Below are positions 9,772 to 12,378 of a stretch of 64,000 nucleotides of DNA, in pieces. The translations under genes were made by a program, and so were the position numbers. The DNA is from Mansonella perstans (Eukaryota > Nematoda > Chromadorea > Rhabditida > Onchocercidae): the NCBI GenBank assembly GCA_037074765.1, contig JBAMDO010000147.1, positions 124,001-188,000 of the forward strand, given 5' to 3'. The notes under the pieces were generated by a model that was not told where the DNA came from, did no database searches, and worked only from the letters and a program-made list of their open reading frames with translations. Within the stretch, counting starts at the first letter, position 1. Each line of letters opens with the position of its first letter.

Positions 9772-12378
9772 TTAAATCAGCATTGGTTTAATATTTCTAC
9801 AAGGTATACAGAAAATCTGTTCCGCTTGCATGCATAATTTTTCGCTTCCAAGAACGAAAATTTCTCGAAGAGTTTTCAAGTCCCAGAAGGTTATATACTG
9901 TTTGTATTCTATCAGTATATTGAGGTCTTCTTCTGCTATCAGTAGTTTAGCCACCTGAAATTCCAATGAAAGCTATTCTTTTGAAATCGATAAGCAAATG
10001 AAGTTGCTTTTGATTGATACGTTAACAAGTATGATTTGATTTAGTTAGAGCTTTTTCTGAAACTTCTAGTGTATGTTTTAAATTTGGCAAACTGACCTTG
10101 TAAGTATAAATGATTTGTGAAATTCTTGACGGATCGGGATGCTTAATGTCACCTTCATACTGAAATTCAGCTCAGATTTGTTCGACTAGAAGATGCTGGT
10201 TTTGGGACAAGCCATTTTATTTCAAGGTATTAATTATGTAAGAAACTTACAATAAGTGGCACGGCACCCATTCTCAATACTGCCAAAGTACAGATAATCT
10301 GATGGAAAGTGTTTGTTGTGCTAATGATTAAGCTCAGTTCATCCAGAAATATAGTGTCCTGAATGCAAGCCGTCTCCATTTCAAGTCTTTCCAGCGAAAT
10401 GGGTTGTAACAGTGAAGCAGAAGAAGCATTTCTGAAATTAAAAACTTCTGGTGGCTTTTTTGAAGAACAAAACAGTTATCAAGTTCCTTTCATTATGCTA
10501 ATTAAAAACTGCTGGTGATTTTTTGAAGGCGGAGGGCAGGACAATACAATTACCAAGTTCCTCTCATTATGCTAAATAAAGTTCCTCTCAATACAATTAC
10601 CAAGTTCCTCTCATTATGCTCCGAGGATTTTCCGAAGAATAAAACAATTATCAAGTTCCTGTCATTATGCTAAGGATGCGTGGATGCCGCCACAATGTCG
10701 CGTGGTTTGTCGATGCTAACCTTGTGGGTAAGAGTAATGAAATTGATTCGTTGGGAACTGATTCTGGCCTACAATAGGTGGATGCTTTCGGGAAAAATTC
10801 ACTCCACCAGGAATCCCGCTTTTCCTTCATTGCAACCTAAAATATAGTTATATCACAGAGGTCACAGGATCCAAGGGAAAAATGTTTATTGCCGGATTTC
10901 ATGTCGTTCATGAAAAAGAATAAAGCAAGTTTCTCGACAACTACTGAAATTTTCCACTTAATCCTGTTTTCAGGTTTTATACTTTGTACAAATAATAGGG
11001 TCGTCTGCCGGTTAAATGAACTTGTGGCGGTGGTATTCCTTGATCTGGACTGACATGTCGTATGACTAGTACACGTTCTATCGCCTGCAATATGTTAGGA
11101 TCGGAGATGACAGTGAAAAGATTGCTTGGTGACAATTTTTACTTCTTTTTATTCTACCCTGCCCAAGAGTAAATGTGACATTAACCCTGAAAAACACTAA
11201 ATGGAGCCAATACGAGCCTTCCAGGCCTAAGGATTAGCAGTTATTTTAATATTAACCTTGAAAAACACTAACTGAATGAAGCCAGTAAGAGACTTCCAGG
11301 TTTAAGCATTAGCCAGTTATATTTTAACATAATTCCTAGAAAACATAACTGGCTACGCTTAGGACTGGAAGTCTCGTATTAATTCCATTTAGTGTTTTTT
11401 AGAATAACCAGTACGTAACTTCCAGTCCTAAGGGTCAGCCAGTTACTCGTGATTGTTTCTTTAAAACAATTTTTATTGGCAAAATTGTCCACAAGGTTGC
11501 TCTCATTTGTCTTTTGATGGTTGACATAAAATCTTTACAATGTCAATGATTGCTGCATCCAGAAGTTCTTTAGTTCTGATTAGCCGGCTACCCATCCAGA
11601 AGCCATCAACTGTCACAATCGTGTCAGTACCACTACTTCTCACCATATCACGTAAACAGTTGACATCTTCATTAGTGGCGCTCTGAGGAATACAAAGTAG
11701 AATGAAATTTATGTTATGAAGTATGATTATTTTAGCGGAAATTGCTAGTATGAAACTATTACTTTAACAATAAACAGTTTTTAAAAGGCCATTGACACTG
11801 GTCTGCAAGATGACTGATTTATAGCTTATATATCATCGACCCGCAACGATGACTAGTTTTATCTATCTATTACCATCTTTCAAATGACATGTTACGTAGT
11901 AATTGGTCTTAATTATTGATCTGCTAATTAAATGCTCACAATAGGCAGAACGATAAGTCCTAGTCGAAGTGCAGCCAATACAATAATAGGAAACTGTAAA
12001 ACATTGGGCAAATAGAGCGCTATTGGCTTATTTTTCTGGATCTGAAATCCTTTAAACACATCGGCGCATTTATTCATCAAAATATCCACCGTTTCTGCAC
12101 TTAATTCCGTGTCATCGTATACATCGTTGTCGTAGTAATTACCGATCCTAAATGCCAAACTTAATTAATTATCTCATTTAATTCTCTCATCTCTTTAAAC
12201 TAATCAGTTTGCAAAATGGCTTCTCTTTTCTGAAATGTTACACTGCGACGTCCGCTGACTGCTCATATAATCCGACCGGTTTTTATACATCTTACCAGTA
12301 AATCCGAGAAGTCTCCTTTTGTATTTTGCTTTTCCAAGCATCGACGCATTCATATGACAAGTTTTTAACTGCTGCCAT
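9772..12378 (-). CDS. Acetyl-CoA synthetase-like pseudoenzyme (truncated paralogue)
   Basis: Eight exons on the minus strand, 12378-12296, 12147-11940, 11682-11539, 11084-10983, 10836-10721, 10431-10251, 10159-10097 and 9954-9772, join in frame with GT-AG introns into 359 residues. Segments align in order with the acetyl-CoA synthetase immediately upstream: KNLSYECVD with TNIAYNCLE, IALYLPNVLQFPIIVLAALR with VMIYLPMTLELPIAMLSCAR, TVDGFWMGSRLIRTKELLD with TADGYYRGKKLVTLKMIAD, IERVLVIRHV with IERVIVVEHL, and YEGDIKHPDPSRISQI with YEGIPSYPTPSRIWQI. The ATP-binding TSGSTGQPKG is replaced by TRNASSASLL, TADCGWITGH is lost, and nothing after the region of LGSVGEP exists. It should not be able to adenylate acetate by the normal mechanism. 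A TTTTTAAAG acceptor lies 17 bases before the ATG. The alternative is a slowly decaying pseudogene or a longer gene whose N-terminal exons I missed. Confidence 0.72.
10432..10675. repeat. Interspersed short repeats in an intron of the ACS-like gene
   Basis: The motif CAAGTTCCTCTCATTATGCT and close variants occur four times between about 10480 and 10672, mixed with AATTAAAAACTGCTGGTGAT-like copies. The block lies inside the intron between exons 5 and 6. Confidence 0.8.
11180..11455. repeat. Inverted and direct repeat cluster (possible small MITE-like element)
   Basis: A unit containing AAAAACACTAA, TACGAG, CTTCCAG and CTAAG.ATTAGC appears in direct orientation at about 11187-11246 and 11263-11318. 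It appears inverted at about 11338-11402, where GCTACGCTTAGGACTGGAAG runs to TTTAGTGTTTTT, and a partial direct copy sits at 11403-11446. A folded hairpin of 50-60 bases per arm is possible. It lies in the intron between exons 3 and 4 of the ACS-like gene. No transposase was seen. Confidence 0.7.

Follow-up and report, generated by a model that had tools for sequence, protein, structure and literature searches.

A truncated acetyl-CoA synthetase-like gene of Mansonella perstans and its relatives in other nematodes

The locus in Mansonella perstans

We analysed a stretch of 64,000 nucleotides of the nematode Mansonella perstans (assembly GCA_037074765.1, contig JBAMDO010000147.1, positions 124,001 to 188,000; hereafter ‘the window’, to which all coordinates refer), in which a truncated gene resembling that of acetyl-coenzyme A (acetyl-CoA) synthetase (ACS) lies downstream of an intact ACS gene on the same strand, with 1,068 bp between the ACS stop codon and the ATG of the truncated gene. 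The truncated gene occupies positions 12378-9772 (minus strand) and encodes what is almost certainly a conserved non-catalytic protein, a pseudoenzyme: the 34 relative records collected in three protein searches, from 30 named nematode species (designated by P numbers below), resemble it in the loss of catalytic motifs and, with one exception, in a motif of their own. The intact gene (13447..18563, minus strand; 14 exons) encodes a protein of 683 residues carrying TSGSTGQPKG, TADCGWITGH and the SGK lysine, motifs from which we read the enzyme as active. Its third intron, 17401-17255 (minus strand), appears to be GC-AG (donor GCAAAT), and is the only such intron.

The truncated gene consists of eight exons that join, in consistent phases, into one frame of 359 residues from the ATG to a TAA stop codon at 9772, and all seven introns have GT-AG borders. 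An earlier interpretation made from the letters alone (the sequence-only reading) had proposed this structure, and every border proved right. With Parascaris P0014 as the sole guide, spliced dynamic-programming alignment of the region 13000-8000 (minus strand) placed every intron and the start codon as in this model (score 617); identical introns were obtained with Elaeophora P0001 (score 1286) and Thelazia P0009 (score 979) as guides.

Exon 1 (12296..12378) holds the start codon and begins MAAVKNLSYEC, the counterpart of ‘TNIAYNCLER’ in ACS; nine relatives (P0001-P0007, P0009 and P0010) begin no more than one residue from its start. Exon 2 (11940..12147) encodes the first half of a region corresponding to subdomain A of ACS, together with a first family-specific loop (GNYYDNDVYDD), and exon 3 (11539..11682) the family motif TVDGFW...L..TK..LD. 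Exon 4 (10983..11084), which stands in place of ACS exon 6, is filled by a second family-specific loop, RH...PxP...RRPxY, and exon 5 (10721..10836) follows with an RD.WW segment. The first half of subdomain B lies in exon 6 (10251..10431), where the ATP loop and GW.TGH are replaced, while the EG....PDPSR segment of exon 7 (10097..10159) is kept. Exon 8, with the stop codon (9772..9954), supplies the end of subdomain B; the adenine motif (QTE) that ACS has at this place is absent. Two introns are rich in repeats: intron 3 contains an inverted repeat (11168-11445) with 61-nt arms that are 80% complementary, plus further repeats, and a genome search with the inverted repeat listed this place alone, on both strands; intron 5 contains four imperfect 49-nt repeats (10453-10673).

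A search of the M. perstans genome itself with P0001, covering the 75.7 Mb of the 539-contig assembly, gave nine matches, eight at the pseudoenzyme locus and one at the active ACS gene, and further copies were rejected on the basis of this search. Convergent with the pseudoenzyme gene lies a gene for ATP synthase subunit c (about 8761-9357, plus strand; PF00137, E 1.1e-11), and beyond it a gene for a glycolipid transfer protein (about 7997-6464, minus strand, from a rough exon join; PF08718, E 2.2e-40).

Relation to acetyl-CoA synthetase

The neighbouring ACS matches the pseudoenzyme by blastp at E 2e-17, with 23% identity over 355 columns, and the acetyl-CoA synthetase structure 5ifi in the PDB matches it at E 8.9e-15. 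The homology claimed by the sequence-only reading is thus upheld, as opposed to its extent: the ‘first two thirds’ of ACS should read ‘middle half’, because the alignment spans ACS residues 91-422 of 683, some 90 N-terminal residues being gone as well. PF00501 (the AMP-binding domain of the ANL superfamily) scores 45.9 bits on the pseudoenzyme against a curated cut-off of 29.9, and of 29 relatives 27 match it at E 0.01 or better; PF16177 (ACAS_N) was matched neither by the pseudoenzyme at E up to 1 nor by any of the same 29 at E up to 0.01. In a score test on three relatives (P0001, P0014 and P0021), TIGR02188 (acetate--CoA ligase, EC 6.2.1.1) gave 87.4, 96.3 and 98.2 bits, respectively, far below its cut-off of 724.95.

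The sequence-only reading had held that the C-terminal catalytic region is absent, and that downstream exons carrying the missing motifs would speak against a non-catalytic protein. In positions 1-13400 of the window, the C-terminus of the active ACS found no match at E 10 or better, and that of a bacterial ACS reached a best E of 4.1; on the active gene, as a control, the same two queries gave E 9e-68 and 4e-33. Missed downstream exons were rejected on these searches together with the spliced alignments, and in positions 1-13400 the region is absent as claimed.

For three of the seven introns the neighbouring ACS gene has an intron of equal phase (phase 0) at the corresponding place or close to it. 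The intron before exon 8 falls in the identical alignment column; that before exon 5 has the identical next residue, with a 20-column gap on its 5′ side; and that before exon 4 is two residues off in the alignment. The introns flanking exon 4 correspond to those around ACS exon 6. A retrocopy was rejected, given seven introns of which three resemble those of the active gene, and we infer that an ACS gene duplicated at the DNA level gave rise to it.

Relatives in other nematodes

The relatives are 30-76% identical to the pseudoenzyme over aligned columns, the nearest being filarial nematodes. They comprise 21 species of what we take to be Spirurina (filarial worms and their kin, Thelazia, Gongylonema, Gnathostoma, Dracunculus, ascarids including Anisakis and Toxocara, and pinworms) and nine of presumed Rhabditina (Necator, two Ancylostoma, Cylicocyclus, Haemonchus, Nippostrongylus, Angiostrongylus, Dictyocaulus and Auanema, the last a rhabditid by its recorded lineage). 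Relatives with an open frame, whose absence the sequence-only reading would have taken as a refutation, thus occur in filarial, ascarid, oxyurid and strongylid worms. Twenty-four of the 34 extend to the C-terminal region of the pseudoenzyme, none of them more than 24 residues past its residue 345, and the remaining 10 are partial or faulty models that stop short of it. The models P0005, P0006, P0007 and P0016 (Onchocerca, Brugia and Wuchereria) appear to read on from exon 6 or 7 into the following intron, finishing with residues unrelated to the family; the 3′ end is thus probably annotated wrongly in public records of several species. In Toxocara canis P0013 the family motif stretch occurs twice in tandem, and once in P0015, the other Toxocara model; the doubling may be a repeated exon or a fault of assembly or annotation.

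In a maximum-likelihood tree of 24 of the 35 family members (the pseudoenzyme and 23 relatives) and 17 ACS rows, the family falls on one side of a branch with support 100/100, the ACS rows on the other; within the family, Rhabditina (98/95) and Spirurina (100/98) form the two subgroups. Twelve of the 38 inner branches are open and the finer order is unsure; the branches of Auanema and Gnathostoma are long, and among the ACS rows the window's own is the one known to be of animal origin. The family may date from before the split between Spirurina and Rhabditina, and neutral sequence would hardly keep a single alignable frame over that time.

Motif counts over the pseudoenzyme and its 34 relatives, set against 45 ACS, separate the two groups. 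The ATP loop TSG[ST]TGxPKG is found in 0/35 family members versus 41/45 ACS, and GWxTGH (42/45), YTAPTA (41/45), GEP (39/45) and QTE (44/45) are likewise missing from the entire family; SGK, with the catalytic lysine (43/45 ACS), occurs once, in the off-family tail of P0005. The replacement of the ATP-binding loop and the disappearance of TADCGWITGH, reported by the sequence-only reading for M. perstans, hold for all 35 sequences. Conversely, RH...PxP...RRPxY is present in 34 of 35 family members and in none of the 45 ACS, in a pattern that accepted I, V or M ahead of the prolines, P, S or E as the first proline, and R, K or S preceding RP; it is missing only from P0078, a second model for Nippostrongylus that leaves the motif stretch out, while P0077 of the same species has it. 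D[GA]FW is found in 33/35 versus 3/45. Two conserved loops set the family apart from every ACS examined: GN..D....D lies near residues 30-40, RH...PxP...RRPxY at residues 154-176. In 17 ACS rows 91 columns are fixed, and 14 of these hold the same fixed residue in 17 family rows.

The comparison of a structure prediction with ACS, also called for at the outset, yielded an ACS-like fold. AlphaFold models of two relatives, with predicted local distance difference test (pLDDT) scores of 88.7 and 89.7, match the two N-domain subdomains A and B of ACS, and the predicted fold equals ACS over residues 72-418 (numbering of Salmonella 1pg4). By both sequence and prediction, then, all that is left of ACS is the pair of alpha/beta subdomains in its N-terminal domain, with the loss of the beta-barrel subdomain and of the C-terminal domain that bears the catalytic lysine.

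Function of the pseudoenzyme and comparison with known systems

The catalytic motifs are lost and yet the protein is conserved, as seen from the motif counts and the tree. Together with the open-frame relatives and the lack of downstream exons, this supports the proposal of the sequence-only reading that selection has kept a non-catalytic protein, probably a working one. Our favoured interpretation, to which we lean without great assurance, is that it is an ancient nematode pseudoenzyme derived from duplication of an ACS gene and now a protein-binding module with docking loops. An ACS gene would have been duplicated and the copy trimmed to N-domain subdomains A and B; ATP binding and probably CoA binding would have been lost, and acetyl-CoA synthesis, judged from the motifs, should not be possible. 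The ACS body, kept without its chemistry, would constitute the protein-binding module (a rather likely role, to our mind), with the two family loops as putative docking surfaces. The likeliest partner would be the ACS machinery, including the neighbouring active ACS (18563-13447), a live paralogue in the same genome, akin to prozyme-type dead paralogues that tune a live enzyme; the active ACS is a tentative candidate, with the balance tilted somewhat against it. Slightly more doubtful, though possible, is the most specific version, in which the protein is a dedicated dead-paralogue ACS subunit that predates the Spirurina-Rhabditina split, docks via RH...PxP...RRPxY and governs where the live enzyme sits, how it assembles or how active it is, and hence the nuclear and cytosolic supply of acetyl-CoA. 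It might alternatively act by joining or capping an ACS assembly.

Several points weigh against these proposals. The linkage of pseudoenzyme and ACS is known from this single genome. The most conserved 10-residue block (residues 71-80 of P0001, computed on 19 of 29 rows) lies in the confident core of the model (pLDDT 92) and not in a loop; the low pLDDT of the loops could stem from small alignments, and instead of a protein a conserved loop might equally bind a metabolite or nucleic acid. Word-limited searches listed no match from Caenorhabditis, Strongyloides or Trichinella, which does not establish absence (one scored the 7,996 candidates with the most shared words, and ACS made up 43 of its 53 listed matches; another scored 862 candidates); should they be right, some nematodes can do without the function.

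Among the other explanations, a non-catalytic scaffold that merely reuses the fold for a partner unrelated to ACS is the most serious contender, even if we consider it rather unlikely. Its hallmark loop is missing from all 45 ACS, no oligomer surface shared with ACS could be shown, and the gene neighbourhood comes from one genome; yet the active ACS gene is a close neighbour in the same orientation, and the models preserve the structure of the ACS body. A sensor that still bound a ligand (CoA, acetyl-AMP or another nucleotide) but no longer turned it over would fit the PF00501 matches of the pseudoenzyme and most relatives, as well as E280, G281, P286, R290, K135 and D139, all fixed as in ACS. 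We nevertheless regard it as improbable, and the acyl-AMP or CoA binder entertained by the sequence-only reading is disfavoured, because the ATP/AMP motifs (ATP loop, GW.TGH, YTAPTA, GEP and QTE) and several ACS-fixed residues are lost: G185, F186, S187 and R211 (active-gene numbering), which we presume to serve in the CoA region, are unconserved (R211 in 2 and S187 in 3 of 17 family rows), and the portion that the C-terminus of ACS contributes to its active site is gone.

D123, W126, R154, H155 and Y176 are identical in 17/17 family rows and could in principle build the active site of a new enzyme, an idea that we find very hard to credit, with R154 to Y176 in or beside a low-confidence loop. 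The intron-reading models and the 10 of 34 that stop short might suggest a decaying pseudogene or a gene-prediction artefact; an open frame with intact splice sites and a private motif conserved across Spirurina and Rhabditina make this extremely implausible, and decay was rejected on the conservation of the gene across nematodes (34 relatives, 23 of which form one clade with it in the tree).

As a conserved pseudoenzyme family, the group stands out: roughly half of the parent protein is gone, and an almost invariant loop has been added. Our literature searches found no description of it. Twenty of the 34 relative records are named ‘acetate--CoA ligase’ in UniRef (names as listed, some shortened), and metabolic models or target lists that rely on this name would therefore count a dead protein as an enzyme. 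The family is kept in parasitic and free-living nematodes, and P0022, from the rhabditid Auanema, may open the question to tests in a laboratory worm. Should the pseudoenzyme regulate ACS, it would bear on how nematodes control acetyl-CoA supply, which in C. elegans affects chromatin, according to work on RNA interference of acs-19 (PMC7400466).

The evident parent is ACS itself (ACSS2; C. elegans acs-19; TIGR02188), with which the pseudoenzyme has its predicted fold and three introns in common; as opposed to ACS, it is without the N-terminal 90 residues, the catalytic motifs, the beta-barrel subdomain and the C-terminal domain, and has two loops of its own. Trypanosomatid parasites likewise possess both live and dead paralogues of deoxyhypusine synthase, and the pair reportedly shares active sites, to go by the title of a paper; the ACS catalytic residues, in contrast, are absent here. 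In PMC10820115, the AdoMetDC prozyme of trypanosomatids is described as a dead paralogue that heterodimerises with and activates the live enzyme. It too is a strongly diverged duplicate (30% there, 23% here), but its heterodimer has been shown, whereas our protein is known from sequence and is also without about half of its parent. In yeast, Acs1 assembles into trimers and filaments (8RWJ; PMC13311838), and a truncated ACS body could therefore, by analogy, join or cap such an assembly, although Acs1 is an active enzyme whose assembly was observed, and the pseudoenzyme a protein with a predicted fold.
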